Shown: positions 3,607 through 19,250 of the stretch, one piece after another
Layout of the letters: each line of letters opens with the position of its first letter
Position numbering within the stretch: the stretch's first letter is position 1
IMG/VR virus record: IMGVR_UViG_3300042290_000219
Coordinates: 1-22,476 of that record
DNA length: 22,476 nt
Direction: 5' to 3' (one strand)
Origin: a virus
Position numbers and translations under genes: made by a program
The notes under the pieces: generated by a model
Told to the model about the DNA's origin: nothing
Databases searched by the model: none
What the model saw: only the letters and a program-made list of their open reading frames with translations

Positions 3607-5595
3607 TCAACTCAAGCGATAGCTAACAAACGTATTAGCAGCAGTCCGGCGTGATGCAAAGCGACCTGATGCGCCAGCGGCAACAGTGGCGCTGCCTGTC
3701 ACGGTATGGCCGGTGCCGTTGCCAATGGTGCAAGTGCCAGAGCCAGTGTTGATCACGGACCACTCAAATGTCATGTTGGTGTAAATGCCGGAGAAACCGC
3801 CTTCTGTCAGGGTGCCTGTGGGCAGCGTGAGGTTGGCAGCAGCTCCGGTGTATTGGACCAAGCCGTTTTTCAGATCGCCAATAACGAGAGTGGCGGCAGC
3901 GGCGTAAGAAACAGGAGCGGCTTGGTCATAACACTGCACGCCATCGTTGGTGATGCGCAGGCGCTCGGTGGGGCTTGAGGCCCCATCCGCAGTAGTGGAG
4001 AGCTCTAGGCGGCCGGGATGACTAACTCCAGGTGTCCAGGTGCCTGTATCTCTACGAGCTGCAACACTTGCTGCTGCATCGTGATTACTGTCTCCAAATT
4101 CAATAACCCCTAGTGCCTGATTGATAGCAGGGCTAGCAGAGCCTCTAGCAAAGAAAAGAACGGACTGAGTTGTTGCGCTAGTGCTGTTTCCTTGAAGTAT
4201 TTGTGTAACAAGTCTAGAGCTGCTAGACGTACCAACTAAGAGCCTGCCGGAGCTGTCGATGCGGGCTACTTCACTAGCACCAATGTTGGCAATGAATGGT
4301 GCAGTAGATGCGGCAGATGTCAGTGTGGTGGTGCCTGCATTGTTAATCCTCATCGCCTCAGTTAGCGATGCCTGGCCATCCCGTGTAACGGAGAATACAA
4401 GGCGCCCTGGCATGTCATTAACGCCAGGGGTGCCGTCTACTTCTGCAATAATTCGAGCAGCATTAATGTAAGTTGAGCCGTCAGCACCTGAAAAATTAAC
4501 AAAACCTAGCGTTTGTCCAGATGCAACTAGGGTATTAACTCCTAATGTAGCTGAGTTAGATCTGGTCAAGCTTAGCGATGAAGCACCTCCTCCAGTATTA
4601 AAAGAATAAATACTTTGATTAGTACTGACTCCGGTTGCACTGGCAGCAGCAATCTGCAACTTATCATTTACGCTACTACTAAGCGCACTAGACGTACCAA
4701 CCAAGAGCCTGCCGGAGCTGTCGATGCGAACACGTTCTGTGTTGGCGTTATCAAGAACAGGAGAAAAAGCGATGTAACCATCTGCAGAAGTGAACGTGTT
4801 CCAGTCGAGTCCATTTTCTCGGCCAAAGACAATCTCGCCGCCGTTTCGGGCTGCTTGCCCTGCTTTAATCTTTACAGTGGCGTCTGCATCGCTGTTTTGC
4901 GCATTGATAATTGCAATTGATGTATCTGCGGCGGGGTTTACTTGTCGAATACGCAAGTAAGCAGACACATTGCTAGTGACACTTGCCAAATCATTAATCA
5001 GGACATTCCCACTCGCATCAATAAACAACCGCCCCGTGCCACCAGTTGAGATGGCTACTTGATCTGCGCCGGGAGAGTAAACGCCGGTGTTAGTGTCGCC
5101 GGTAAATGTAATTGTGGGCGCAGCAGCAGTACCGAGCGGATGCTGCGCAATGCTGTCGAATGTTGCAGTGCTGGTTACATCGAGGGTGCCAGGAACGTCG
5201 ACGTTGCTGGTCCATTCGACGCCAGTGCCGGCGGCGTCAGTTTGGATGAGCTGGCGGGCAGCACCGTCCTGCAGTTTGGAGACAGGCAGTTCGTCGGCGA
5301 CAACACCGACCCAAGTGCTGCCGTTCCAGACTTTCATCTGGGCAGGGCTGACACTAGTGTCGAGCCACTGTTCGCCGAGGTAGTTGCCGGTACTGCCGCC
5401 AACGGCAGGGGATGAGTTCGGCGCTGTAGTGCCTACATGGACAGGGCCGACCTTGACGATGCCAGTGCCAGCAGAGTCCTTGAAGAAGAGGCCGGGGCTT
5501 GCGGTGTTGGTATTGATCGCAAGCTGGCCGTCGGCAATACTTGTGGTCGGACGCTTATTTGCGGTGCCGCTACGAAGATGCTTGTAGGTGGCCAT
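3607..5595 (-). CDS. Tail fibre / receptor-binding protein (662 aa)
   Basis: A 662-residue fibrous protein. The N-terminus (YKHLRSGTANKRPTTSIADG, then QLAINTNTASPGLFFKD) is the attachment-type domain typical of cyanophage fibres, and a GEQWLDTS / MKVWNGSTWV motif follows at about 74-95. The middle has low-complexity beta-repeat segments, including two copies of RIDSSGRLLVGTSS near residues 290 and 445. The C-terminus (LVIGDLKNGLVQYTG... ending FVSYRLS) is probably the globular tip. Its role is host recognition at the distal tail. A good AGAAGGAAG lies about 7 bases before the ATG. It follows a 52-aa gene and precedes the lysis block. Roughly 4040-4650 is AT-richer than the ends, suggesting domain exchange. 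The exact tip ligand is unknown. Confidence 0.85.
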   Translation of the reverse strand: MATYKHLRSGTANKRPTTSIADGQLAINTNTASPGLFFKDSAGTGIVKVGPVHVGTTAPNSSPAVGGSTGNYLGEQWLDTSVSPAQMKVWNGSTWVGVVADELPVSKLQDGAARQLIQTDAAGTGVEWTSNVDVPGTLDVTSTATFDSIAQHPLGTAAAPTITFTGDTNTGVYSPGADQVAISTGGTGRLFIDASGNVLINDLASVTSNVSAYLRIRQVNPAADTSIAIINAQNSDADATVKIKAGQAARNGGEIVFGRENGLDWNTFTSADGYIAFSPVLDNANTERVRIDSSGRLLVGTSSALSSSVNDKLQIAAASATGVSTNQSIYSFNTGGGASSLSLTRSNSATLGVNTLVASGQTLGFVNFSGADGSTYINAARIIAEVDGTPGVNDMPGRLVFSVTRDGQASLTEAMRINNAGTTTLTSAASTAPFIANIGASEVARIDSSGRLLVGTSSSSRLVTQILQGNSTSATTQSVLFFARGSASPAINQALGVIEFGDSNHDAAASVAARRDTGTWTPGVSHPGRLELSTTADGASSPTERLRITNDGVQCYDQAAPVSYAAAATLVIGDLKNGLVQYTGAAANLTLPTGTLTEGGFSGIYTNMTFEWSVINTGSGTCTIGNGTGHTVTGSATVAAGASGRFASRRTAANTFVSYRLS
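4223..4263 (-). repeat. 41-bp direct repeat, copy A, in tail fibre gene
   Basis: Begins CTAGACGTACCAACTAAGAG on the plus strand. It matches the segment at 4688-4728 with one difference (T versus C at the 15th base). It encodes the RIDSSGRLLVGTSS repeat (about residue 445). Confidence 0.9.
4688..4728 (-). repeat. 41-bp direct repeat, copy B, in tail fibre gene
   Basis: Second copy of the same repeat, encoding RIDSSGRLLVGTSS at about residue 290. The near-identity at DNA level between copies 465 bases apart (exactly 155 codons) points to recent duplication or ongoing gene conversion. Confidence 0.9.
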
Positions 5596-5643: not shown

Positions 5644-5802
5644 TCAATACTCACCCTCGTCGATTTCGACGTCGTACTCGGCGATGACTTGCGTCAGTGT
5701 CTTGTACTGAACGTAGTAGTCAGCATTGGAGACCTTGACAAGGATTTCACCCTCGATCCCACCACGAGGAAGGTTTTCGCCGTTGTAGTTGAAGCTGGAC
5801 AT
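5644..5802 (-). CDS. Small fibre-associated unknown protein (52 aa)
   Basis: An ATG at 5802 opens a 52-residue acidic frame (MSSFNYNGENLPRGGIEGEI..., ending YDVEIDEGEY) with a stop at 5644-5646. The ATG shares its A with the stop of the upstream 846-aa fibre gene (TGATG), so translation is coupled. The predicted structure is short beta strands (EILVKVSNADYYVQYKTL) and it has no membrane segment. Its position between two fibre genes suggests a fibre assembly factor or connector. I know of no characterised homologue. The acidic pI and coupled start make a chance frame unlikely. Confidence 0.7.
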   Translation of the reverse strand: MSSFNYNGENLPRGGIEGEILVKVSNADYYVQYKTLTQVIAEYDVEIDEGEY

Positions 5803-8342
5803 CAGTAGGTGCCTTCATCGACCACTCCGACTGTCATTGCTCCGGTGGTGTTGTTGACCGCAATTTCGGTCGTTTCGAGAACGATGCCCAATGTTGACGG
5901 CGTTGCAATTTGGCTACGGCCCCACAGTGTTGTTAGCGCGGCTTCGGCATCTGCCACACCCGTCATCGGGGGGCTGAGTGCGCCACCACTGAAAGTCACG
6001 TCGCCAGCGTCAATAACGCTGATACCAGCGCCGACGATGTTTACGTGCGTCCATGTCGTACCAGAGCCAGGGCTGAGGATCCAGTCACCGACGTCCAGTG
6101 CAACAGCAGGCGCTGGTGATGTGCCAGTGCCTGCTGTAGTCACGAGCAAGTAGAGACCAGAGCTTGCAGCAGTTGGTGCAACAAGAGCGGTGTTAACAGT
6201 TAGGCCGGAGGATGATCCATAAGTGTTGAGGCTGGAAATGGTATTGGTGCTTGCGTTATAGGTGCCACCGAATCGAAGGTTGGCTTGAGCGCCGAACTCG
6301 TTGTTTAGGGGTAGGTAGTAACCCTGAGCTGGGGAGACTTGGCCGACCCAGACGTAGGCGGTGCGGTCAGTGGGGTTGATCCAGAGCTGGCCCGCGAACT
6401 CGGGAACTGGCTGGCTGCTACCAACCTGCGCGATGCCGTAGTCAGCAAGTTGAGATGCGGTAACGCTGTTGGGGGCGAGGCGCTCCGAAGCAAACGTGCC
6501 GGTCGTGATCTTGCTGGCGTCAAGCTCGGGGATGTCGGTTGCTGTGAGTGCCAGAGCTGCGACGACGTGACCTTCACCGTCGTAGGTGACTTTGGCTGCG
6601 CTACCTGGAGTGATCGAGTTGCTGTGGTTCAGCGTGCCAGCGCCGTCAACACCGAGGCCGGAGCCGGGGCGGACGACACCAATGCTGCTGGCGCTGGCGA
6701 CGGGTACGTCGGCCCCAATAATCTGCCGGCCACCGGTGATGAGACCTTTGTTGTTGTATTGGACGACGTGGAAATTGCTGGTTTCAGCGGTAACAGTGTT
6801 ATCGACGGCGATGGTGTCGCCGCTCATCACTAAGCCATTACCGTTGACGACGACACCACCTTTGGCTCCAGTCGTAGCTGTCGGCAGGTCCACGCCGGCA
6901 ATGGTGCGATATGTCACCGCACCCGCTGCCGAGGACGGCCCAGCAAGAAACTGTCCGGCCGCACTCGTGTTATCGAGTGTGGTGCCGATGGTTACGGTAT
7001 CACCTGAGGCAGTGGCGGTGACATTAACGACGCCTGCTACGCCACCAGTAATGGTGTTAACACTGCCGGCGGCTCTGATGCTGACCCAAGTGGCGCCATC
7101 CCAGCAGTAGAGCTTGTCGTCGCTGGTTACGCGGGCTAACTGACCCAAGTACTCGCCGCTGGCGGGAAGCGTCGTGACGAAGTCGACCGTGGATTCGTTG
7201 GCGAGCTTCGCAGCAGTTACCGCGTCGTCTTGGATTAAAGCTGTACTGACTTGGTTTGCTGTGGCAACAGAGCCAAGACCAAGAGTGGTGCGTTGATCAG
7301 CAGCGGTGGCGTCATCCAAGAGTGCTCGACCGGCAGCGGTGAGCCCAGTGACGGCATAGGTATCTGCACCTGTGGTGTAGACGGTTTGATCGGCGGTGGT
7401 GGTGAGTTCCGCGATTGAGTTGAGACCGGCGTCGTATGCCTGGACGTTGGTGCCGATGGTCAGCCCGAGGTTGCTACGGGCTGTGGCGGCGTCGCTCGCG
7501 CCGGTACCACCGTCAGCTACAGCCAGATCGGTGATGCCGGTGATGGTGCCGCCCGAAATCGTTACGGAATTGGCGCTCAGACTGCTAAGCGTTGCTGTAC
7601 CGCCAGTAACTGCAACAGCGTTGGCGTTCTGCGTGGCAATCGTGCCAAGGCCGAGCGTGGTGCGTTGGGCTGCGGCATTGGCGTCATCGAGCAGAGCGCG
7701 GCCAGCAGCGGTGCAAGCGATCTCTTCGACATTGCCGCCACCTGCGCTACTGCGCCCAAGAACAACATCAGTAGTTGCTGTGTTTTGGATTTTTGCGTAA
7801 GTAACCGCATCGTTTGCGATGGTCGCTGCAAACGAACCTGTGCCGGATCCAGTTACATCACCGGTAAGGGTGATGATTTGGTCACCTGTGTTTGTACCAG
7901 AGCTAGTGCCTGAGTGTGTACCAGAAAACGTGCCGCTTTGCGTGGCTAGAGTTCCAAGTCCGAGCGTTGTGCGTTGGGCTGCAGCATCGGCGTCATCCAG
8001 GAGTGCTCGACCGGCAGCGGTGAGCGGAACCTCTTCGACGTTGCCAGCACCAGCACTGCTACGACCAAGCAGTCGATCGGTGGCGCTGACGTTTTGCAGC
8101 TTGGCGTAGGTGACCGCGTCGTCAGCAAGAGCGGTAGTGCCGAGTTTGGTGGCGCTGTTCTGATCGAGCTTGGCGAGGTCGATCTCGCCGTTGTCCACCA
8201 AGTCGATGCCAGCGGCAACAAGATCCTTGGCGGTTACTTTTTTGGTCTCGCTTGCCGAGATATCGGCAATGGGTAGGACGTCAGTGGCGGCGACCCCGGC
8301 CTTAGGCAATGCGTTTAGCTGGGTAATCCGCTGGTCAGCCAC
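5802..8342 (-). CDS. Large repetitive tail fibre protein (846 aa)
   Basis: An 846-residue fibre protein. The N-terminus (MADQRITQLNALPKAGVAAT, DVLPIADISA) is the domain used by many phage fibres to attach to the tail. Two 62-residue repeats follow at about 74-135 and 177-238 (each with DDAVTYAK/NDAVTYAK, LLGRSSAG/VLGRSSAG and AAGRALLDDA..AAQRTTLGLGT), and a shorter third at about 337-361. Residues 277-295 carry ADGGTGASDAATARSNLGL, a lambda-type fibre repeat. Later come TTLPASGEYLGQLARV, DKLYCWDGATWVSIRAAG and QLWINPTDRTAYVWV modules found in many fibres. It is expected to form a trimeric fibre at the tail tip. The GTG start is favoured by GGAG seven bases upstream. The neighbouring fibre at 3607-5595 may be its distal partner. 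Confidence 0.85.
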   Translation of the reverse strand: MADQRITQLNALPKAGVAATDVLPIADISASETKKVTAKDLVAAGIDLVDNGEIDLAKLDQNSATKLGTTALADDAVTYAKLQNVSATDRLLGRSSAGAGNVEEVPLTAAGRALLDDADAAAQRTTLGLGTLATQSGTFSGTHSGTSSGTNTGDQIITLTGDVTGSGTGSFAATIANDAVTYAKIQNTATTDVVLGRSSAGGGNVEEIACTAAGRALLDDANAAAQRTTLGLGTIATQNANAVAVTGGTATLSSLSANSVTISGGTITGITDLAVADGGTGASDAATARSNLGLTIGTNVQAYDAGLNSIAELTTTADQTVYTTGADTYAVTGLTAAGRALLDDATAADQRTTLGLGSVATANQVSTALIQDDAVTAAKLANESTVDFVTTLPASGEYLGQLARVTSDDKLYCWDGATWVSIRAAGSVNTITGGVAGVVNVTATASGDTVTIGTTLDNTSAAGQFLAGPSSAAGAVTYRTIAGVDLPTATTGAKGGVVVNGNGLVMSGDTIAVDNTVTAETSNFHVVQYNNKGLITGGRQIIGADVPVASASSIGVVRPGSGLGVDGAGTLNHSNSITPGSAAKVTYDGEGHVVAALALTATDIPELDASKITTGTFASERLAPNSVTASQLADYGIAQVGSSQPVPEFAGQLWINPTDRTAYVWVGQVSPAQGYYLPLNNEFGAQANLRFGGTYNASTNTISSLNTYGSSSGLTVNTALVAPTAASSGLYLLVTTAGTGTSPAPAVALDVGDWILSPGSGTTWTHVNIVGAGISVIDAGDVTFSGGALSPPMTGVADAEAALTTLWGRSQIATPSTLGIVLETTEIAVNNTTGAMTVGVVDEGTY
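7260..7334 (-). repeat. Partial fibre repeat, copy 3
   Basis: Encodes residues 337-361 (AGRALLDDATAADQRTTLGL...). Only the second half of the unit is kept; a DDAVTAAKL element follows at about 372-380. Confidence 0.8.
7629..7814 (-). repeat. 186-bp fibre repeat, copy 2
   Basis: Encodes residues 177-238, 309 bases from copy 1, with the core AGRALLDDANAAAQRTTLGL. The amino-acid sequence is better conserved than the DNA, so the duplication is not recent. Confidence 0.85.
7938..8123 (-). repeat. 186-bp fibre repeat, copy 1
   Basis: Encodes residues 74-135 of the 846-aa fibre. It aligns without gaps to 7629-7814; the core is AGRALLDDADAAAQRTTLGLG. Confidence 0.85.
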
Positions 8343-8374: not shown

Positions 8375-9250
8375 TTAGTCGTCAACCTCTTGAAGCAGGA
8401 AATCGAGTGATTGCTGCAACTGGATGCGGTCGTCGTCTTCCTTGAGGATGTAACCAGCTGGTTCACCAATCAGAAGGCGGACTTCGCCCGTAGTAACAAA
8501 GTCAATACTGCATTCGATGACGCTTTCTGTGTTGAGAGTGATTCCAGCGCGAGTGACGAGGGCCGTCATCTCGTAGTAAACCGAAGTCAAGGAAGAATCC
8601 AAGCTGCGGTCGGTTACGTACAAAGCAAGGTCAAACTCGCTGCCGATATCCACTCGTTGGATTAGCTGGAGCATTAGCAGCGGTGTTTCTTTAACACCAG
8701 TGCTTTTGTAGTCGAATAGGCAGTCGATGCTGCCGTTACCGCTGATAAGCCCTGCGCTGTACTGCTGTTTGAATTTATCGCTTAGCGCTGTAACGTCGAT
8801 GGATTCTCTGTCTGTGTTGAACGTATAACCGGTTACGTTGCCGAGAACGTTGTTACGCAAATCACGAACAATGTAATCAATAGCGATCGGATCGCCTGTA
8901 AACGCGGCCAAAGAGAGTTCGCTGGCTCGCACGTTGTTGACGGCGTCCTCAAATAAGGGAAAGAAGCGGAGGCCGCCGGCAGCGTTGACGTTGACGTACG
9001 CGCTGATGGTGTCTTCGACTGTTGCGGAGTCCCAGGCGGATGGAGCAAAGCACACCAGTCCGCGAGGGTCACTCGTCGAGATCTCTAGGCGGTCGCCCGT
9101 CAGTAGATTGTCCAGCGACGAGGTGAACCCCAGGCGGTTTAGGGACGTGTTGACGTCGTCGGGCTCGATGCGATCCGAAAACGAGCCGTAGCTCAGGCTA
9201 GAACCACGGCGTAGACGGATGTTGCCTGTATTGCCTAGAAAGACAGCCAT
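8375..9250 (-). CDS. Tail-tube-fold protein at the tail tip, long form (291 aa)
   Basis: A 291-residue protein that I read as a paralogue of the tail tube protein at 17970-18743. Shared features are an N-terminal MAVFLGNTGNIRLRR strand and a GDRLEISTSD segment resembling the tube's GDPVKFRV. The core (VTGYTFNTDRESIDVTALSD) matches the tube's VRDWSFEISRAEIDVTTIG. A closing sheet VYYEMTALVTRAGITLNTES, IECSIDFVTTGEVRLL, matches the tube's SISFDAVLTSASLNINPDDA, VTVNF. Its start overlaps the previous gene as TAATG. Position after J and before the fibres suggests a distal ring or fibre attachment collar. Homology is inferred by eye; the structural role is a hypothesis. Confidence 0.65.
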   Translation of the reverse strand: MAVFLGNTGNIRLRRGSSLSYGSFSDRIEPDDVNTSLNRLGFTSSLDNLLTGDRLEISTSDPRGLVCFAPSAWDSATVEDTISAYVNVNAAGGLRFFPLFEDAVNNVRASELSLAAFTGDPIAIDYIVRDLRNNVLGNVTGYTFNTDRESIDVTALSDKFKQQYSAGLISGNGSIDCLFDYKSTGVKETPLLMLQLIQRVDIGSEFDLALYVTDRSLDSSLTSVYYEMTALVTRAGITLNTESVIECSIDFVTTGEVRLLIGEPAGYILKEDDDRIQLQQSLDFLLQEVDD

Positions 9251-9684
9251 TACGCGGTGACGACCTCGGTAAAGTCGCCATCCATGGTGAATTGGATCGG
9301 TACGACGCTTAACTCACCTGTACTGACGCTGACCTGAGCGTTGGTGATATATGCGTTGAATTTGAAATCGTCTTTATTGTCACCGCCCACATTCAGCTCG
9401 AGCAGTACCCTGTCGCTTTCAGTAATAGCTCCGCCTTTCATCACCCTCGAAAGGATTGTGGTGAACTGCTCATAGGTGGTGCTTTCGCCCGGCTCCAAAC
9501 GGTAGTAGATAAGCGTGGCGCTGCCCGTGGCACCTTTTACGCCAGGGGTAAAAGTATTAACCGTGCTGTCGATGGCGTTGGTACTGAGCAGTTCAACTGT
9601 TGTGTCTACTGACCAGTCGCGGATTTTGGCGACAGGCTTGCCACCAATAACAAGAGACCCGGTACGACCTGTGAAAAATGCCAT
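9250..9684 (-). CDS. Tail-tube-fold protein, short form (144 aa)
   Basis: A 144-residue protein with a tail tube-like pattern: N-terminal MAFFTGRTGSLVIGGKPVA, core VAKIRDWSVDTTVELLSTNA, a glycine turn VKGATGSATLIYY and closing strands FKFNAYITNAQVSVSTGE, LSVVPIQFTMDG. The same order is seen in the major tail tube (QVRDWSFEIS, GDGTGTATVYM, SISFDAVLTSASLNIN) and in the neighbouring 291-aa protein. At 144 residues it has the size of a minimal tube subunit. The stop overlaps the start of the 291-aa gene (TAATG), so the two are made together. It may form a ring at the tail end or be a second tube subunit. No known lambda gene sits at this place. Confidence 0.7.
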   Translation of the reverse strand: MAFFTGRTGSLVIGGKPVAKIRDWSVDTTVELLSTNAIDSTVNTFTPGVKGATGSATLIYYRLEPGESTTYEQFTTILSRVMKGGAITESDRVLLELNVGGDNKDDFKFNAYITNAQVSVSTGELSVVPIQFTMDGDFTEVVTA

Positions 9685-9712: not shown

Positions 9713-10093
9713 CTAGGCAACGGCTACAAGGCTTACTTGCACACTACTGCGACCTTTGTAGATCGACTGAACGCGAGGTTCAGACTCGTAGCGCCAGCGA
9801 GTTCCAGGTGGTGCATCAATCGCAGCGGCTGTGCCTTCCCATCCGGCACGGGTGTTCGTGCTGGCTGGCAAGGTAAACGTGCGCAGCGTTCCGAGCTGTG
9901 CGGCGTAGTCGTCGAGAAACAGTTGGGCGTTGGCGTCTGTGATGTTGTCGTAGCCAAGCGTGAGCTTGGCGTTAACACGACGGCTGCCGTACAGAATGCG
10001 GACTTCGCTGCCGGATTGCGAGCTGAAGTTTTTGACCGGCCACGCGCCAGGGCTGAACTCTCGTGCGGATGGCTTGAGGTTTGGAAACGGCAT
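9713..10093 (-). CDS. Minor tail protein at the tail tip (126 aa)
   Basis: A 126-residue beta-rich protein. The N-terminus (MPFPNLKPSAREFSPGAWPV) is followed by SGSEVRILYGSRRVNAKLTL and then a helix and loop (ANAQLFLDDYAAQLGTLRTF). The end (RVQSIYKGRSSVQVSLVAVA) is a beta hairpin. Proteins of this pattern accompany lambda-like J proteins in cyanobacterial phages as minor tail proteins; the fold may resemble lambda gpM or a distal tail domain, but I cannot assign it firmly. The ATG overlaps the J-like stop as TGATG; a GTG three bases earlier (10096) is an alternative start. Confidence 0.68.
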   Translation of the reverse strand: MPFPNLKPSAREFSPGAWPVKNFSSQSGSEVRILYGSRRVNAKLTLGYDNITDANAQLFLDDYAAQLGTLRTFTLPASTNTRAGWEGTAAAIDAPPGTRWRYESEPRVQSIYKGRSSVQVSLVAVA

Positions 10094-13000
10094 CACTCCA
10101 GCACCCGGAAGTTTTCTTCAGTCAAAACGTCCTTAGCAACAATGCTAACGCCGGTGGAATCGACGGGTACTTCCACGGCGCTGATGTTGACGAGACCGTC
10201 CTCGTCCAGCGTTAGCTGCTCCACTTGGTAGACGGAGGCGCTGGTTTGCAGGCTGAGCAGGGTGAAAAGGCAGCCGCGTAGGGCGGTGTCTGTGACGGTT
10301 TTGTTTTGGATCGTGATGCGTTGTTCGGTTACAGCGCTCGTGGTGGGGTTGTAGATGAGGGCGTCATAGCTGCCGTTGGCGATGGATGTGACGCTGACGA
10401 GGGTGCCAGCATCTGTGATTCCTCCGTTGTTGGTGGCGCTGTAGGTGGTGGCTTCGGTGATGACGCGAATGTACGAGCCGGGTTGGATACCGAGGGCGTC
10501 GGGCACGGTCTTGAAGCTGACGGTGTGAGTGACGCGGCGGCGGATGCTCAGCAGGAAACGTGCAGTCTTCAGCGCTTGGGCGCGATTGGTGCAGAAGTCG
10601 GTCAGGTCAAAGGTCTGCTGGGTGGTGGAGCGGCTGCCTTCGGCGATGTCCGCCCAGTCGACCAAGGCAGAGGCTTGTGTGGGTAGATCGTTCTCGACAG
10701 TGACGCGCCAGGTGACCAAGGCCCGGAAGTTGGCCCGCTGAGCGGCGTCGATGTACTGGACCTGCAGGCTGTCTTGGATGATGTTGCCCGAGGTGAAGAT
10801 TTGCTCGATTGCGATGGGCGTGGTGCTGATCTGGTAGCTGTTGTCGTAGGGCAACGCCGGCATCATGCCGAAGCGGCCGTTTTTGATAGTGAAGTTGCAG
10901 AGCTGGAGTGCTGCGTTGTCGTAGAGGAATGAGCGCAGGCTGTCGCTGTCTTCCACCACGCCATCAAAGAAGATTCTGTTGGCGCGTAGGTATTGGGCTG
11001 TTGTGGTGAGCGATTCGATGTCGATCAGTTCTGTTGGGACGACGTTGCCGACACCTTGGCTCTTGCTGGTCAGCAGGTAATAGACGAGGTCGGCAAACAG
11101 GTTGCTGGGTTTAATGTCACGCTCGATCAGGCGGTAAACGTTGATGCCGGTGGGGACCCAAGCGCGGATCTGGCCAATGCCGCCGAGCTGACCACTGGAT
11201 TTGACGGTGAAACCCAACGTAGACATCCCGTAATACTCAGCGAGAGTTTCGTTAGATACAAACTCGTTGACGTAAACGATCTGGTGCTCTGGACCGCTCT
11301 CGTTGGACTTGGTTAGTTCCAAGTAGTGGCTACAGTCCGAGACCTGCGAGTTTTCCTCGAAAATGCGTTCGGCAGTGCTGATGACCGAGGTATCTACCGT
11401 AGATGCAGCTTGAACAGCAGAAACCTGCCATGCTACATAAACAATTGAATAGCCACCATAGTTAGAAAATCTGTTGCTTACTGGTATTTCAATAGTGAAA
11501 GCGTGCGTAGTGTTCCATGTGCCAGTTGCGGAAACAATGGTATACTGAACGTTTTTCCATATGTAAGGACTATTGTTATTGAGATCCCGGTACACGGCTC
11601 CGTAGTCAACCCCGAAAGTACCTGCAACTGAATCTGCGGTCACAGTAAATACAATCTGACCTACACCAGATTTGTTTTTTGTTAACGTGGCACTTGCGGA
11701 TTGACCAGGTTTATCTTTTGCTAAACCTAAAAGTTCTGTGAGCCAAGCATTTACAACTTGTTGTACACTGCCGTTGTTAGAGCTTTGGTCGTATTGAGAC
11801 AGCGCTGAAGGAATCGTTGTTTGAGTTGTTGTTACACTGCTGCCTTCTTGTGGGTCAGTAACAAGCTCGTCGTTCAGGCGAATGTCGGCAATGGATATGA
11901 CCTCGCCATTTGTTGTAATACGGAAAGCGCCGTAATCTGTGGAAAAATCCTGTCCGTATTCAGCACCAGTGTTTGCATTAAGACGGATGACTTGATTTGT
12001 GTCGATACTGTTAGTTGCAATATCAGATCCAGTGCGGGGGATAAAGCGGTATTCGTAGTAACCAGCTTGACGTGGGCGGATTCGGATGTAGTTGTATTGA
12101 TCAACTGGTGCGTTGCCAGTTACGCAAAAGACTTGTGGCATTCGCCGCCAAGGTTTTTGAGCTTGGCCATACACCTGGACTGGACGTACCCAGATAGAAA
12201 AGCATGATGTCCGCTCGAAGTATTTATCCATTCGAGGCGTCGTAAGCGTGATGTCTTGTTTATCGAGTTGGTGAAGTTTGAAAGGTGTTGGAATTGCGTT
12301 AAAATTACAAAGGCCGTTGGCGCGGTTCCAGACTTGGCTGCGCAGCCCAATCTCAATGACTTGAGCATCGCGTCGCACAGGGCGAATGCTTGCCATGTGC
12401 AGACGGCAAATGTTGAAGAATGCAGCGCCACAGTGTTTGTTGGGGTTAAAGACGCTGCCCTCGTAGCCGCCTAGCGGTTCTTCTACTGTTTTTCTACCGG
12501 CTAGACCGACAGTTGCTACGCCCGTGATTGCGGTGCACCTGAACGTAATCCGCTGGGTTTGAAACTGCGTCCAAGTGGCAGGACTTCTGCTTTCAACAAC
12601 CCAGACTGAAGCGCCGATGATCCACTTTGAGCCTATGGCTAGCAAATCAGAAGCTCTTGCCCGCCAAGAGTCAGCAGAAGACTTCAGGTCTTTAACGTTG
12701 ACTTCTGTGTCTTTGAAATCAGACTGGTTAAAATCTTTCCAGTTATTGCCGTTAATCTCAAAGATCAGGGTATCGTTTTCTGCGACAGTAATGATTGTTC
12801 GATTAGCGACGTCGTTACCTCCATTGGTGCCGCTGTGTGCAACAAAACCCATGCGGCGAGAGTAGGCGCGACCTACGCCAGGCATTCCTACTTGCCCGAT
12901 GTCTTCCTTCGGTTGACCTGTATATATGTGAAGAACATCAGCATCAGAACCTGCAATTTTGCGGCGGCGGGCTTGAGTCTCGTAGCGTGCTTCTTTGTTA

Positions 13001-13962
13001 TCGGGGCCTTCTGTTGCTGCGTAGGGGGCCGAGATGATTTCCCAGTTGAAGCGGAAGGCTGTGCCGTTGTGGATGGGCTCGGCTGTTCCAAACGAAGTAT
13101 CTGCTTGGGGGCTGTACGCCATGGAAAATCCTTGGCTGAACTGCCCGTCCTCGGTTGGGGCGGTAAAGATCTGGCGTCCGACGGAGCCGGTGGTGCCGTC
13201 CCCTTCTTTATGTGTGCCTGCGACTAAGCGTGCTGTCGTTGGCCTGTTCTCCCCTAACTGGCTGGACCAGAACACTGCATAGTCGCGATTGCCGAGGCTA
13301 TTGAGGGCTGTGGTGCCAACCCGGATGCCACCGAGTTCGGGCGCAGCGATGCCGTATTCGCCGGCAACGTAGATACCTTCAAAAGCTTGGTAGCTGCCGT
13401 AGCTGTAGAGGCGGCTCCACACCAATGCTGGAGCGAGGATCAGGCCGCCGGTCAGGGCGCCGTCAGCACCAGTGCCTCTCTTGCCGAAGGGAATGGGAAT
13501 TGGCTGGCCGTACTCGGCAAGAGCACTGACGTTGTCAAAGCTAGTGGTTTGATTGAAGCGGGTAGGGCCGATTTGATCCGCTAGCTTTTTGCCGCGAATT
13601 TTGGCAGGTGATTCAAGCGCTGGTGCTTTTGGAGACAGCAAAATGCTGACGGCTGTTAGTGCCAGGCCAATGGCAACGTTTACGGCAATAGTTGTTGCGA
13701 CTGATTTTGCACCGGCAGCCGCAGCGACGACGACCGGAACCATTGCTGCATAAATTTCAGGGATATTCTCATATTCAGCAGGGCGTACGTATGTGCGCTG
13801 TACAGCGTGACGAACAAAAGTCTTGTATTCTTCTTCACTGCAACCCAGCGCTTCGATTAGCGCGATTTCATACGGTAGGAGCGGCGGATCGTAAAGCTTG
13901 CCACCGGTTTCCAGTCCACTGCGGAAATCAAGTGGTTTATGAACAGGATGCCACTCTGCCAT
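10093..13962 (-). CDS. Lambda J-like central tail tip / host-specificity protein (1289 aa)
   Basis: A 1289-residue protein at the J position of a siphovirus tail, expected to form the trimeric tip that closes the tail tube and contacts the host. Residues 1-60 are a polar, partly helical lead (LYDPPLLPYEIALIEALGCS). Residues 71-110 are hydrophobic (PVVVAAAAGAKSVATTIAVN and following), as in the N-terminal membrane-active segment of J-type proteins. About 145-165 holds SALAEYGQPIPIPFGKRG, resembling the conserved YG...PFGK hub entry. Long beta-rich stretches follow. The C-terminal part (CTNRAQALKTARFLLSIRRR, GIQPGSYIRVITE) matches the hub domain III/IV signature. It starts with GGAG four bases before the ATG and overlaps the K-like gene by 106 bases. 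The stretch 11400-12050 is AT-richer, suggesting an exchanged segment. Confidence 0.85.
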   Translation of the reverse strand: MAEWHPVHKPLDFRSGLETGGKLYDPPLLPYEIALIEALGCSEEEYKTFVRHAVQRTYVRPAEYENIPEIYAAMVPVVVAAAAGAKSVATTIAVNVAIGLALTAVSILLSPKAPALESPAKIRGKKLADQIGPTRFNQTTSFDNVSALAEYGQPIPIPFGKRGTGADGALTGGLILAPALVWSRLYSYGSYQAFEGIYVAGEYGIAAPELGGIRVGTTALNSLGNRDYAVFWSSQLGENRPTTARLVAGTHKEGDGTTGSVGRQIFTAPTEDGQFSQGFSMAYSPQADTSFGTAEPIHNGTAFRFNWEIISAPYAATEGPDNKEARYETQARRRKIAGSDADVLHIYTGQPKEDIGQVGMPGVGRAYSRRMGFVAHSGTNGGNDVANRTIITVAENDTLIFEINGNNWKDFNQSDFKDTEVNVKDLKSSADSWRARASDLLAIGSKWIIGASVWVVESRSPATWTQFQTQRITFRCTAITGVATVGLAGRKTVEEPLGGYEGSVFNPNKHCGAAFFNICRLHMASIRPVRRDAQVIEIGLRSQVWNRANGLCNFNAIPTPFKLHQLDKQDITLTTPRMDKYFERTSCFSIWVRPVQVYGQAQKPWRRMPQVFCVTGNAPVDQYNYIRIRPRQAGYYEYRFIPRTGSDIATNSIDTNQVIRLNANTGAEYGQDFSTDYGAFRITTNGEVISIADIRLNDELVTDPQEGSSVTTTQTTIPSALSQYDQSSNNGSVQQVVNAWLTELLGLAKDKPGQSASATLTKNKSGVGQIVFTVTADSVAGTFGVDYGAVYRDLNNNSPYIWKNVQYTIVSATGTWNTTHAFTIEIPVSNRFSNYGGYSIVYVAWQVSAVQAASTVDTSVISTAERIFEENSQVSDCSHYLELTKSNESGPEHQIVYVNEFVSNETLAEYYGMSTLGFTVKSSGQLGGIGQIRAWVPTGINVYRLIERDIKPSNLFADLVYYLLTSKSQGVGNVVPTELIDIESLTTTAQYLRANRIFFDGVVEDSDSLRSFLYDNAALQLCNFTIKNGRFGMMPALPYDNSYQISTTPIAIEQIFTSGNIIQDSLQVQYIDAAQRANFRALVTWRVTVENDLPTQASALVDWADIAEGSRSTTQQTFDLTDFCTNRAQALKTARFLLSIRRRVTHTVSFKTVPDALGIQPGSYIRVITEATTYSATNNGGITDAGTLVSVTSIANGSYDALIYNPTTSAVTEQRITIQNKTVTDTALRGCLFTLLSLQTSASVYQVEQLTLDEDGLVNISAVEVPVDSTGVSIVAKDVLTEENFRVLE

Positions 13963-14201
13963 TGGACTCCGAATTCAGGTGGCTTGGCGCCGAACAGAAT
14001 GATGTCCCCATCGTAGGCGGGCGCGTCTAGTGAATCGCAGAAAAGTGCCAGCTCGCGCAAGATCCCACGAGGAGTGAGTTCGTACCAGTGGTTGGCAACG
14101 TCTGGCGGGGTTTTGCCGAGGGCTTTGAGGGAATCGACAACAAGGTGGATGCAATCGTCTCCGCCGTACTCGTAGCGGCGACCGATCAGATGCTCACACA
14201 C
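13857..14201 (-). CDS. NlpC/P60-like tail protein (lambda K-like), apparently degenerate (114 aa)
   Basis: A 114-residue protein in the K position between the L-like and J-like genes. RRYEYGGDDCIHLVVDSLKA carries the NlpC/P60 nucleophile motif with C17, and DGDIILF (64-70) matches the strand before the catalytic His. Where a HVGI-type His is expected (about 76-80) the sequence is EFGVQ, so the His appears missing; H90 is too far along to be an obvious substitute. It may therefore be a structural or inactive hydrolase relative. The expected role of active homologues is local peptidoglycan cleavage at infection. It overlaps the L-like gene by 8 bases, and its last 34 codons overlap the J-like start in another frame. 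Confidence 0.75.
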   Translation of the reverse strand: MCEHLIGRRYEYGGDDCIHLVVDSLKALGKTPPDVANHWYELTPRGILRELALFCDSLDAPAYDGDIILFGAKPPEFGVQWQSGILFINHLISAVDWKPVASFTIRRSYRMKSR

Positions 14202-14646
14202 TGATCTGCGCTGTGAACGGGATGCTGCCGACTTGCCAGCGGTGCAGCCTGCGGCCGGGGATGTTGGACTGCACAGCGTCGAGCACCGAGTTCAGGCTGA
14301 CCTGGATGTTGACTTCGTCCCAACCGCCGCTTGAACAGGTGCCCCAGTAGTTGTAAAGGGTGCGCTGGACTGCTCCAGTGGAGGGTTCCCAGAGCACCGT
14401 GGTGACCTTGGCAACCCATAGGTTATCGAGTGCCTCGACAATCCAGGCGCGTGTCATCTCGATATTGGCGAACTGAAGCGTCGCGTCGAGGTTGTCGCCT
14501 TGGAGTGTGGCTACCGCTCCACCGAAGCTGAACGGCAGAAACAAGTAGCCGTCTACGTTCTGGTTGATCGCGTAATTCTGGAAGCGGTACTGTGCCGCTT
14601 GGCCGCTGGGGCCGATGTCGAGGAGGTGGCCGTAGGCGTATTCCAT
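14194..14646 (-). CDS. Minor tail protein, lambda L-like (150 aa)
   Basis: A 150-residue protein directly after the tape measure. It shows MEYAYGHLLDIGPSGQAAQY, then DGYLFLPFSFGGAVATLQ, EMTRAWIVEALDNLWVAKVT and a C-terminal NIQVSLNSVLDAVQSNIPGR with GRRL. The last part is typical of gpL-type proteins, which sit at the distal end of the tail and connect the tube to the J hub. I see no four-cysteine cluster of the iron-sulfur type described for lambda gpL; only one Cys is present. Its ATG shares the A of the tape measure stop (TAATG). The assignment rests on order and the general pattern. Confidence 0.72.
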   Translation of the reverse strand: MEYAYGHLLDIGPSGQAAQYRFQNYAINQNVDGYLFLPFSFGGAVATLQGDNLDATLQFANIEMTRAWIVEALDNLWVAKVTTVLWEPSTGAVQRTLYNYWGTCSSGGWDEVNIQVSLNSVLDAVQSNIPGRRLHRWQVGSIPFTAQISV

Positions 14647-17291
14647 TAGATGCCGACTCCTCTACGTGTGGCGGCGCTGTTTTTCAGGCTGCGCATGGCG
14701 CGGCGTTCGCCTTGGATAGCGCCCTGTTGGGCAGCTTGTGCCATGCCGGCCCTGAACTGGTCAGCCGTAACGTAGTCCACATTGTTGATGCGTTCCACGC
14801 TGTAGCGGACGTCGATAGGCTCCATTGCGGAGGTTGCTGTGCCACCGCTTCCACCGCCGATGCCGTTGCCAAAAACAACAGCCTCGCCACGGGCGCCACG
14901 CGAGTAGCGGGACATGGCGGCGGACATCTTGGATCGTGGAATGACGTACTCGGGCTCGCCGCCTTCGCCGATCAGAGCGCGAGTGGGGCCAGTAACAAAG
15001 CCGCCTTCGGCAAAAGCTCCGCCGGGGAACAAGGGTGTAGTGGATAAAGCACCTGTTCCCTGTAAACCAGGAGCGCCCATGGATCCAATGCCAAATCCCC
15101 CTAGTAGAGGAGAAAGTAGGCTTTGAAGTAACTGAATAGCTTGAAGTTTTAGTGCTTCGGCCGCAATACGCGCTGCCATGTCAATAAAATAATCTCCAAC
15201 ACTCTTGAAAAAATTAGATAGTCCTTCTCTAGCAGTCATTGCGCCAGAAATAATGCCTTTGAAAGACGCAGAAAAAGCATCGCCTATGGCACTAGCTGCG
15301 CCGATAATTTGATTTATTGGGTCGGTTAAAGCGGCTAGATTTTCTTTTATTTCTTTTATAGCGTCTGGTAGTCGCATATCAAAAATTTCGCGCATACCAG
15401 TGTCGTCCCATGTAATGCCGCCGCGCAAGTCATCTAAGGTGTTTTTTACTGCTTCGTCTATGTCACGAGCAAGCTCACGCAACTCGTCGTCACGTTGTAG
15501 TTGCGCATCTTTTAAGCGCACAATTTCTTGCGCGCGTATTACAGTCTTTTCTGTTTCATAGTTTGCGTTAAGTAGGGCTTTAGCTGTATCACGATTGATG
15601 TCAGCTACCTTTTGATCGTATTCCAAGCGAATTGCTAGTTCTTTATTGCCTTCGAAGAGTGCGTCGCGTATACCGTCTTGGGTGACGGACATCAGTTTCA
15701 TTGCTTCAAGATCTTCACGGAGTAAAGCCGTGCGATCTTCGGGCGGTTTCGGTCCTTTTTTACCGGCGCCACCTGTAGGGCCGAATTCGCTTGGTACCGT
15801 GAACGATTGGACTGGTGTACCAGGGCGTGGTATTCCGGCAGGCCAGTTTGCGCCATCCATTCCGGCGTTCAGGTTTAGTGAAGTAGCTAAACCGCCCCTA
15901 TTTTCACCTACGCCTCCTCTAAGCTTGTCTATTGAAGATAGAGTCCAATAAATAGCATTGAGTCCTGGGATCATGTTTAAGATTGCTGTGCCTACAGCTT
16001 GAATAGTCCCGGGAATGCTGTAAAAAGCAGTAGCAAATTTAACGCCTAGTTCTACAATATAAGCACCTAGTGAAATAACTTTTCCGGTAATTTCAGCTAG
16101 CTTTATAAGCGCGGGTGACATCGCTTTGACTATGCGGTCAAATGCTGTTACGACTGTATTTTGCGTGTTAGTAAAGCTGGTGTTTATTCCTGTGGTGGCG
16201 TTTGCAAACGCATTGGTCATTGCGGTTGCAGTTTCTTCGTAGCTGCTTCTAACTTTTGTAGCTCCTGCGGTGCCTGCGTTGGCTACCTCGACAAGAGTGT
16301 CGATCAAACTTTGGACGGATATTTCACCGTCTTTAGCCATTTTCAAGATTTCGGATCTGCTTACTTTGTACTTATCTGCAAGTGCTTGTTGGATATTTAT
16401 GCCTTGGCTTGTGAGTTGGTTAAGAGTTGCTTGGGTTACTTTTCCGGATTCCAGTGCGCTGGTGATTGAGTTGCCGGTTTTTTCAAATGACCCGCCGTAC
16501 GCTTCTGTGAGACGGGTTACGAGCTGGATTGCTTTTGCCTGATCTTCAAGGGCTAAGCCAACACCACGGATATTTTGAATAACAGCGGTAAATTTATCTA
16601 CATCGGTATTTGCAACCTTAAAAGCGTCGGAAAGTTGTTTTGTTTGTTGAGTAGAAAAGCCGATGTCATCACCAAGCTGTTTTATAGCTTGCCCCTTAGA
16701 GGCAATTTCACCTAGAAGTGTGCCAAGCAGCGAACCAGCGAAGCTACCGCCGGGACCTGCAAGACCACCAACTAGACCGCCGATGGCGCCACCGGCTGCT
16801 GCTCCACCGCTTTGGCCGAACAGTAGAGGGAATGCACCGCCGATAATGCTGCCGCTAATAGCTCCACCAATACGTCCGCCAACACCCCCACCACTTCTGG
16901 ATGCTGCTACTGCTGCAGAAGTTCTTGGCGGTAATGCCGGACCTTGGACGCCAACACCTGCATTTGCTGTTGGAACAGGTTTACGTTGTAGGATTATCTG
17001 TTGTTGAATTAACCGATTCTGACGATCTCTTGCTGCATTAGCTTGACCTAGTGCTTGCACATATTGGCGCACTGCATCTGCTTCAGCGATTGTTCCGGCT
17101 TTTACTTTATTAAGTGTTGCAGCAGCTTGTGCAAGATTTGCGTCATACGCATTAATACTTTGAGATGCGCCAGCTAGACGTTTGTTTACACTATCTACGC
17201 CTGTAGCAAGAGTATTTATCTGCTTAGTTAAAGCTTGGAGCTGCTGTACGCCCTTTACGCCAATCTCGATATCGGCTCTGTAGGCAGCCAC
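14646..17291 (-). CDS. Tail tape measure protein (881 aa)
   Basis: An 881-residue tape measure that sets tail length and is ejected with the DNA. The N-terminal helix (IEIGVKGVQQLQALTKQINT) and coiled-coil-like region reach about residue 105. A Gly/Ala-rich hydrophobic segment spans 135-195. A TMP_3-like domain follows at about 200-340, with LTSQGINIQQALADKYKVSR and ILKMAKDGEISVQSLIDTLV. More membrane-active helices lie near 390-450 and 730-755. A helical rod (AKALLNANYETEKTVIRAQE) lies in the third quarter. The end has AEGGFVTGPTRALIGEGGEP, a motif common at the C-terminus of phage tape measures. At about 0.15 nm per residue the tail would be near 130 nm (inference). The GTG start is read with a weak GGAA upstream. 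The region 15100-16650 is AT-richer than its flanks. Confidence 0.93.
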   Translation of the reverse strand: MAAYRADIEIGVKGVQQLQALTKQINTLATGVDSVNKRLAGASQSINAYDANLAQAAATLNKVKAGTIAEADAVRQYVQALGQANAARDRQNRLIQQQIILQRKPVPTANAGVGVQGPALPPRTSAAVAASRSGGGVGGRIGGAISGSIIGGAFPLLFGQSGGAAAGGAIGGLVGGLAGPGGSFAGSLLGTLLGEIASKGQAIKQLGDDIGFSTQQTKQLSDAFKVANTDVDKFTAVIQNIRGVGLALEDQAKAIQLVTRLTEAYGGSFEKTGNSITSALESGKVTQATLNQLTSQGINIQQALADKYKVSRSEILKMAKDGEISVQSLIDTLVEVANAGTAGATKVRSSYEETATAMTNAFANATTGINTSFTNTQNTVVTAFDRIVKAMSPALIKLAEITGKVISLGAYIVELGVKFATAFYSIPGTIQAVGTAILNMIPGLNAIYWTLSSIDKLRGGVGENRGGLATSLNLNAGMDGANWPAGIPRPGTPVQSFTVPSEFGPTGGAGKKGPKPPEDRTALLREDLEAMKLMSVTQDGIRDALFEGNKELAIRLEYDQKVADINRDTAKALLNANYETEKTVIRAQEIVRLKDAQLQRDDELRELARDIDEAVKNTLDDLRGGITWDDTGMREIFDMRLPDAIKEIKENLAALTDPINQIIGAASAIGDAFSASFKGIISGAMTAREGLSNFFKSVGDYFIDMAARIAAEALKLQAIQLLQSLLSPLLGGFGIGSMGAPGLQGTGALSTTPLFPGGAFAEGGFVTGPTRALIGEGGEPEYVIPRSKMSAAMSRYSRGARGEAVVFGNGIGGGSGGTATSAMEPIDVRYSVERINNVDYVTADQFRAGMAQAAQQGAIQGERRAMRSLKNSAATRRGVGI

Positions 17292-17969: not shown

Positions 17970-18743
17970 TCAGGCGGCGCTGCTGAAGTCGAAGGTCGGG
18001 GTGCCAGCAGGGCGGAAGTTGACGGTCACCGATTGGGCGTCGTCGGGGTTGATGTTCAAGCTGGCCGAGGTCAGCACTGCATCGAACGAGATCGAGCGGC
18101 TCAGGGTCTCGCTCAGGGTGCCGCCGCTGAATACGCGGTCGGTGTAAAGCTTGAAGGCGGCGCCAGTCTGTTGGCGCTGGAGCACGTCCTCGATCATGCG
18201 GTTGGACAAGGCGGCGTCCTCGTTGGTCATGTAGACCGTGGCGGTGCCGGTGCCATCGCCAAAGCCGCTGATGTAGCTGCGGAAGGGCACGTACTGGCCG
18301 GGGGTTTGGCCGATGGTGGTGACGTCGATCTCAGCGCGGCTGATTTCGAAGCTCCAGTCGCGGACTTGGCCGACAACAGCGAAGTCGGCGTAGTACACCT
18401 CAAACTCGTTGGGGGCGACGGCAGTGCCGTCGTCGGTGATGGCGAGAATGGTGCCACCTGCAGAGGTCGAGACTGTCAGTGCGCCAGTGGCGGCGGTGTA
18501 GGACAGTACGAAGTAAGTGGTGGCAGCACTGATCGGGGCAGGCAGGGTGCCGGAACCTGCTTCGCCGGTTTGGCTGTTGATGACGCGGAATTTCACCGGG
18601 TCACCAGGCTTGAAGTTCAGGAACGGTTGAACGGTGATGACATCGGTGCTGATGTTAACGCCAGTCTCCGGGAAGTTGCCGTTGGTGCCGGCGGGTTTGT
18701 AGTAGAGAGCGCCGGACGTGCCGGACAGAACGGTGGTGGCCAT
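17970..18743 (-). CDS. Major tail tube protein (257 aa)
   Basis: The tube subunit that polymerises around the tape measure. N-terminal MATTVLSGTSGALYYKPAG is followed by an inserted beta segment (LNFKPGDPVKFRVINSQTGE, AATTYFVLSYTAATGALTVS) up to about residue 110. The tube core (VGQVRDWSFEISRAEIDVTT) is followed by SYISGFGDGTGTATVYM and closing strands RSISFDAVLTSASLNINPDD, SVTVNFRPAG. The ATG at 18743 is preferred; a TTG at 18755 would add four residues but begins an unlikely VRP leader. Location between tail terminator and chaperone genes fits. Two tip genes (8375-9684) encode proteins with the same pattern. A hairpin in the leader (GGGC/GCCC near 18770) and a strong terminator frame it as its own expression unit. 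Confidence 0.88.
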   Translation of the reverse strand: MATTVLSGTSGALYYKPAGTNGNFPETGVNISTDVITVQPFLNFKPGDPVKFRVINSQTGEAGSGTLPAPISAATTYFVLSYTAATGALTVSTSAGGTILAITDDGTAVAPNEFEVYYADFAVVGQVRDWSFEISRAEIDVTTIGQTPGQYVPFRSYISGFGDGTGTATVYMTNEDAALSNRMIEDVLQRQQTGAAFKLYTDRVFSGGTLSETLSRSISFDAVLTSASLNINPDDAQSVTVNFRPAGTPTFDFSSAA

Positions 18744-18818: not shown

Positions 18819-19250
18819 CTATGACAACACAGTCGCTACGTAGGAAGTTTCGATGCGTCCCATAAAATGGGGAGACTCTTCCGTAGTGGAAAATGTTGGA
18901 CCGTTAATTTCACCGACTTTGAAATAAACACCGCTAGTGCTTTTTGTACTGTTGTTGATGTTTTCCAGCACGTTTACGGCAGTGGTCAGCAAAGTTTGGT
19001 TGCGGGCGGGGCCGCGTCCTTTTTCTGTAAAAATGCGGATGACAACTGCGCCACGAGCGTTGTCCACGCTGGAGGTAAGAGTGGGTTCGTTGGTAATGCC
19101 GAAAGTAACATTTACGCGGACGTATTCAGTGGTTGTGTTGGGTGGGACGGCCGTGATGTTGTCGAAGTAAACGGGTACTGCTGGGGTTAAAGCACCAAAT
19201 GCTGTAAGCAGTGGATTTTCGACCGCGGCGCGGATGGCTTGGTAGTTCAT
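18819..19250 (-). CDS. Tail terminator protein (lambda U-like, 143 aa)
   Basis: A 143-residue alpha/beta protein: MNYQAIRAAVENPLLTAFGA, a strand EYVRVNVTFGITNE, GAVVIRIFTEKGRGPARNQT, a helix LLTTAVNVLENINN and a closing strand MGRIETSYVATVLS. This fold order is that of tail terminators, which cap the finished tail and connect it to the head. It overlaps the upstream neck gene by ATGA and precedes the tube gene, the usual position. The subfamily is not certain. Confidence 0.8.
   Translation of the reverse strand: MNYQAIRAAVENPLLTAFGALTPAVPVYFDNITAVPPNTTTEYVRVNVTFGITNEPTLTSSVDNARGAVVIRIFTEKGRGPARNQTLLTTAVNVLENINNSTKSTSGVYFKVGEINGPTFSTTEESPHFMGRIETSYVATVLS

Follow-up and report, generated by a model that had tools for sequence, protein, structure and literature searches.

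Two tail tube paralogues encoded between the J-like protein and the fibres of a lambda-type tail: candidate rings of the distal tip

What are two further relatives of the tail tube protein doing after the J gene of a lambda-type tail? The question is raised by the window, the whole stretch of 22,476 nucleotides of viral DNA analysed here (IMG/VR record IMGVR_UViG_3300042290_000219), in which proteins of 144 and 291 amino acids are encoded between the J-like protein and the fibres. The original prediction, made from the DNA letters, took both for proteins with the fold of the tail tube and suggested that they might build a specialised distal ring or a fibre-holding collar.

Tail genes of the window

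All the tail genes discussed lie on the minus strand, and their transcription order runs from the head genes through the tail terminator, the main tail tube protein (TTP), a 113-aa protein, the tape measure, proteins of 150 and 114 amino acids, the J-like protein, the 127-aa protein (p127), the 144-aa protein and the 291-aa protein to the two fibres. Both open reading frames under study were found where they had been placed, downstream of J and p127 and upstream of the first fibre gene:

18819-19250, minus strand: tail terminator (PF13554)
17970-18743, minus strand: main tail tube protein (TTP), 257 aa, with its own distinct insertion; between the terminator and the 113-aa and tape-measure genes
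14646-17291, minus strand: tape measure
10093-13962, minus strand: J-like hub/central fibre protein, 1289 aa (phrog_31, central tail fiber J, E 4e-15)
9713-10093, minus strand: 127-aa minor tail protein, p127 (phrog_15525, minor tail protein, E 3e-23)
9250-9684, minus strand: 144-aa tail tube paralogue, tube core only, without insertion (ORF, hhalign, AF2, Foldseek, PHROG)
9248-9251, minus strand: overlap of the 144-aa stop and 291-aa start codons, TAATG (sequence)
8375-9250, minus strand: 291-aa tail tube paralogue (ORF, hhalign, AF2, Foldseek, Pfam, PHROG)
5802-8342, minus strand: first fibre gene (phrog_24210, tail fiber, E 2e-18)
3607-5595, minus strand: second fibre gene

The TAATG overlap is expected to couple translation of the 144-aa and 291-aa genes. 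The TTP matches phrog_158 (major tail protein, E 2e-4) and is 69.5% identical to the TTP of cyanophage KBS-S-2A, and p127 may have a gpM-like or distal-tail-like role, as proposed from the position of its gene. The closest named relatives of the window phage are cyanophages and its candidate host is probably a cyanobacterium; a scan of bacterial genomes with the 144-aa family gave a single short match, to a Bacteroidetes MAG contig.

The J-like protein contains a segment similar to lambda I at residues 74-166 (phrog_32, tail assembly protein; weak, E 0.0017), and no separate I gene was seen in the window. The J at L341:701-4453 opens with a glycine-rich stretch followed by an intein/Hint-like region (Pfam Intein_splicing and Hint matches, below cut-off), and the J at L343:764-4453 resembles it by eye. 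The 150-aa protein of the window (14194-14646, minus strand) occupies the L position; having a single cysteine and about the length of the first domain only of lambda gpL, it is probably devoid of an iron-sulfur domain. The place of the p127-like gene varies (noted with the relatives L161, L175 and L075): it follows J in the window and in 43 loci, in 70 others it has the tape measure on one side and the 150-aa gene on the other, which is the lambda M position, and the cyanophages S-CBS1, S-LBS1 and S-CBS3 (L239, L240, L241) encode two p127-like proteins after J as against one in the window. An HNH endonuclease gene is located at 2228-2548 on the plus strand (phrog_2214, E 5e-26), opposite to the tail genes.

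Homology and predicted fold of the two proteins

Scanning the window with the 144-aa protein gave a match to the TTP (E 1.8e-4), and pairwise BLASTP yielded E 7e-4 for the 144-aa protein with the TTP and 0.002-0.003 for the 291-aa protein with the TTP. Relatives were collected from viral contigs (365 stretches for the 144-aa protein, 214 for the 291-aa protein and 595 for the TTP), and from them the families compared by hhalign were built, the TTP set without L144, which is a 291 sequence. The TTP and 144 families aligned with E 1e-10 (probability 97%), the TTP and 291 families with E 4.6e-10 (97%, over the core) and the 144 and 291 families with E 1.5e-6 (90%); five other tail families taken as controls gave E of at least 0.05 and reversed profiles E of at least 0.017. 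The profile-profile check thus upholds, against its controls, all three pairings of the predicted kinship, and the common N-terminal motif on which that prediction drew is also real, its GxxG being at least 98% conserved in each of the three families. No profile similarity of the 144 or 291 families to p127 was detected by hhalign. The 144-aa and 291-aa proteins are therefore supported as divergent paralogues of the TTP, whose acidic character they share (predicted pI 4.2-4.5).

Comparison with named proteins leads in the same direction. The HMM of the 144 family matched two proteins of Synechococcus phage S-H1, AZB50578 (E 4e-16) and AZB50577 (E 1e-12), and that of the 291 family matched AZB50578 (E 2e-10), which occupies the gene position expected of a TTP. 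Major tail protein entries were matched by 34/40 (phrog_10528) and 18/40 (phrog_1407) members of the 144 family and by 21/51 members of the 291 family (phrog_1407), 25/51 members of the latter also matching weakly Pfam Phage_TTP_11. Divergent relatives reached E 3.5e-11 with phrog_1407 and 1.9e-11 with phrog_10528; the PHROG matches of the window's own 144-aa and 291-aa proteins were weak (E 0.0012 and 0.0096) and their Pfam matches under the cut-offs, and searches of PDB sequences with these proteins returned chance matches or none, hence no homologue there. The gene position characteristic of the TTP family, between the terminator and the chaperone or tape measure, is filled in the window by 17970-18743, and the 144-aa and 291-aa genes lie after J, which makes their products paralogues and not the main TTP.

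The fold check that had been called for was carried out on AF2 monomers of both proteins, and tail tube folds dominated the Foldseek matches. The model of the 144-aa protein (pLDDT 79, pTM 0.72) matched in the PDB, among named entries, tube, baseplate and neck proteins of phages and related particles, including lambda gpV, monocin, phi812 and T5, and also neck or neck-tail-junction entries of phi812 and GTA. For the 291-aa protein the model quality is moderate (pLDDT 69), with the C-terminal tail left unfolded; the top matches were tail tube, neck and baseplate tube proteins, including those of T1, lambda (gpV) and 80alpha, and a fold search of BFVD added several major tail proteins. TM-scores were modest for both models, 0.2-0.5 by query length and at best 0.5-0.6 by target length. 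An Ig/BppU-like fold of the T5 p132 type was not found for the 291-aa protein, whose core matches tube folds. As far as the models go, a tube beta-sandwich is thus the supported fold of both proteins.

The two differ in anatomy. The 144-aa protein is a bare tube core with no insertion, and in the 291-aa protein four parts can be told apart:

residues ~1-16: N-terminal strand
residues ~17-130: variable insertion
residues ~133-260: tube core
residues ~262-291: acidic C-terminal tail

The insertion of the 291-aa protein had been taken for the one found in the TTP. Its place is indeed the same, in both cases after the N-terminal GxxG strand and ahead of the core; homology of the two insertions, on the other hand, could not be detected by profile comparison (probability 0.7-2.3%), and in the relatives L233 and L235 the 291 homologue, of 378-383 aa, has the insertion replaced by a longer, different segment of ~220 aa. 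Such replacement gives the 291 insertion the look of an exchangeable decoration. The C-terminal tail is conserved and acidic in the 291 family (GYILKEDDDRI.LEQSLDFLLQE.ED), remoter members retaining a related LLQE...LLLED pattern, and is absent from L233 and L235. As regards the TTP itself, the second half of its insertion is similar to a portion of a small tail protein (L089:9159-9749 and similar; i-Evalue ~3e-5), which suggests that this half may be a mobile decoration domain.

In a tree of the cores, the TTP, 144, 291 and short S-H1-type TTP sequences each formed one group, recovered in 95-98% of bootstraps, and the branches were long. The split of the 144 group and short TTPs from the 291 group and TTP was supported only at 85/73, so that any order of duplications read from it is tentative. 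Judged from the tree, the 144-aa and 291-aa proteins are old, specialised paralogues and not recent copies.

Inheritance with the tip and with the fibre gene

Loci were selected by their TTP alone, that is, without bias towards the 144 and 291 genes, and two types of tip were found downstream of TTPs sharing, for the most part, 85-94% identity. Type A follows the classical M-L-K-I-J plan of lambda, with M (PF05939), L (PF05100), K (JAB-NlpC/P60), I, and J with PF24801/PF13550. Type B, to which the window belongs, combines a J containing an I-like segment with proteins of 127, 150 and often also 114 aa. Where type B loci extend 8.9 kb or more beyond the TTP, the 144 gene was present in 23/23 and the 291 gene in 22/22 (one 291 detected by HMM only; the L216 sequence stops inside 144), and either gene in 0/5 of the type A phages readable past J (L173, L195, L167, KBS-S-2A and S-2L), where the fibres follow directly after J; the loci being related, with a few near duplicates, these counts are not independent trials. 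In L075 the pair is present, with its 144-aa protein at 77%, behind an unrelated short TTP, and the divergence of the TTP showed no positive correlation with that of the 144-aa and 291-aa proteins (rho -0.20 and -0.22; n = 31). The restriction to one tip type, together with L075, indicates that the pair goes with the tip and not with the tube, so that its inheritance, as read from sequence comparison, supports assigning it to the tip/fibre end of the tail. On the type A contig L211, an extra bare TTP-like gene for 134 aa lies between the tape measure and gpM (L211:5887-6291; phrog_10528, E 4e-13), and its product is possibly another tip ring.

The pairing itself is conserved: the 144 and 291 genes are nearly always adjacent, and in 116 of the 147 relatives with both genes the reading frames overlap by 1 or 4 bases. 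Among loci selected on the first 100 residues of the fibre, the 291 gene was immediately upstream, at 12-46 nt, in 78/78, and the 144 gene was there too in 77/77. Over 45 loci, the divergences of the 144-aa protein, the 291-aa protein and the fibre N-terminus were correlated with one another (rho 0.50-0.58); with J the values were 0.17-0.23 (J-144 and J-291, 0.21-0.23) and with p127 0.21-0.38, even though the pair has J or p127 as its immediate upstream neighbour. In the TTP-containing subset (n = 31) p127 reached rho 0.58-0.62 with both proteins, and the weak link with p127 is thus not uniform. Individual loci illustrate the exchange: in identity to the window, L171 has 51% for J and 65% for p127 but 32% for the 144-aa protein, 34% for the 291-aa protein and 39% for the fibre N-terminus, and L213 has kept J at 88% with the 144-aa protein at 33%. 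By these patterns of divergence, the 144-aa protein, the 291-aa protein and the fibre N-terminus are a block exchanged independently of J and the TTP. Neighbouring genes can be inherited together through linkage alone, and the correlation with the fibre is for this reason no proof of contact. Moreover, in KBS-S-2A a fibre whose N-terminus is similar (50% over 52 aa) follows directly after J without the 144 or 291 gene; such an N-terminus does not strictly need the pair, which weakens a strict reading of the pair as the fibre anchor.

Proposed role and comparison with known systems

We propose, at a probability of roughly 0.5, that the 144-aa and 291-aa proteins add rings of tube fold to the distal tip, where they help to hold the first fibre. 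In the model, the 144-aa protein, being the bare fold, would resemble T5 p140 in making a ring without decoration, and the 291-aa protein, with its exchangeable insertion turned outward, would form the neighbouring ring or dress it. The flexible acidic C-terminal tail of the latter would then dock the N-terminus of the first fibre. The computation shows the tube fold, the paralogy, the conserved pairing, the confinement to one tip type and the joint exchange with the fibre N-terminus, whereas entry of both proteins into the virion, their assembly into rings, their place at the tip and their contact with the fibre are what we infer; of the distal ring or collar originally predicted, the tube fold and the link by inheritance with the tip/fibre end have held, and the ring or collar itself is made plausible by the analogy with T5 p140 and p132. 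A bolder version, in which bare and decorated tube paralogues make up a hetero-ring collar serving lambda-type phages as a portable module for fibre attachment, must be considered doubtful. If it were true, neither J nor the tube would be tied to the exchange of whole fibre sets, which would rest on an anchor that evolved from the tube protein itself.

Other arrangements have to be weighed against these rings. Placed in line after the tube and before the gpM-like protein, the 144-aa protein, the 291-aa protein or both could add a ring or two to the DNA channel, where they would start tube assembly in the manner of T4 gp54 or T5 p140 and not hold a fibre directly. The bare core of the 144-aa protein, the restriction to one tip type, the precedents of p140 and gp54, the type A contig L211 with its bare TTP-like gene directly before gpM and the high p127 correlations of the TTP-containing subset are all in keeping with such in-line rings; however, in the larger set the pair tracks J and p127 weakly and the fibre N-terminus more, and the co-evolution with the TTP that might be expected of them finds no counterpart in a positive correlation, so that we regard this arrangement as rather unlikely, though as a serious rival. 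A place along the tube, as minor isoforms or decorations, or in the neck is improbable. It would suit proteins that have the fold of the tube and match neck and neck-tail-junction entries of phi812 and GTA, but these entries also hold ordinary tube-fold proteins and the matches therefore do not discriminate, while inheritance follows the tip type and the fibre instead of the TTP and, in L075, the pair coexists with an unrelated TTP.

It is very improbable that the proteins are assembly factors outside the virion, chaperones or templates derived from tube proteins, given the conservation of the N-terminal GxxG and of core residues, the TTP-like acidity and the fact that the TTP-derived proteins of other tails, T5 p140 and T4 gp54, are structural (PMC10038345). 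A chance resemblance between unrelated folds could be suspected from the shortness of the motifs first noticed and the modest pairwise BLAST scores, but profiles, the PHROG matches of relatives and the fold search agree, and this explanation is extremely improbable.

A tube-fold protein in the tip is known from lambda, where gpM (PF05939) makes a six-copy ring joining tube and tip and its gene is placed upstream of J. In topology, lambda gpM and gpV are identical (PMC10721106). The window differs in having a separate protein, p127, proposed as gpM-like, and in that its 144-aa and 291-aa proteins are closer to the TTP family. Hence, of the contrast with lambda drawn in the original prediction, the unusual part is the presence of two TTP homologues after J; the tube-fold tip protein as such is not new, and extra TTP-like tip rings are likewise known already from T5 p140 and T4 gp54. 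The latter resembles the pair as an extra TTP-like ring next to the baseplate, in a tail that is contractile and with one gene, and we know of no linkage of gp54 to a fibre cassette. It has been described as TTP-like (PMC10038345). The closest named homologues of the 144-aa protein, AZB50577 and AZB50578 of S-H1, are tandem TTP-like proteins annotated as hypothetical (L237:15582-16423), but they are encoded upstream of chaperone-like and tape-measure genes, in the TTP position, and the window pair after J. Two old TTP paralogues after J in an exchangeable fibre cassette of lambda-type tails were not found in the open-access literature searched.

The nearest parallel is offered by T5, in which p140, a duplicate of the TTP without the decoration domain, is a ring with the TTP on one side and the distal tail protein on the other; around p140 runs a collar of p132, to which the lateral fibres are anchored (PMC10038345). 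As described, p140 is a bare core encoded in the tip region, and in this the 144-aa protein is like it. T5 (p140, p132 and the lateral fibre pb1) combines one paralogue with an Ig-fold collar, whereas the window, with a lambda-type tail, encodes two TTP-derived proteins downstream of its J-like protein, the second of them decorated. p140 and p132 have been called a landmark of T5-like phages, and another form of anchoring was expected in lambda-like phages (PMC10038345). The cassette of two tube-derived proteins and a fibre gene, widespread in hundreds of viral contigs, would be a candidate fibre anchor for lambda-type tails; if this is correct, tube proteins are reused as parts of the tip and fibre sets can be exchanged without changing J.
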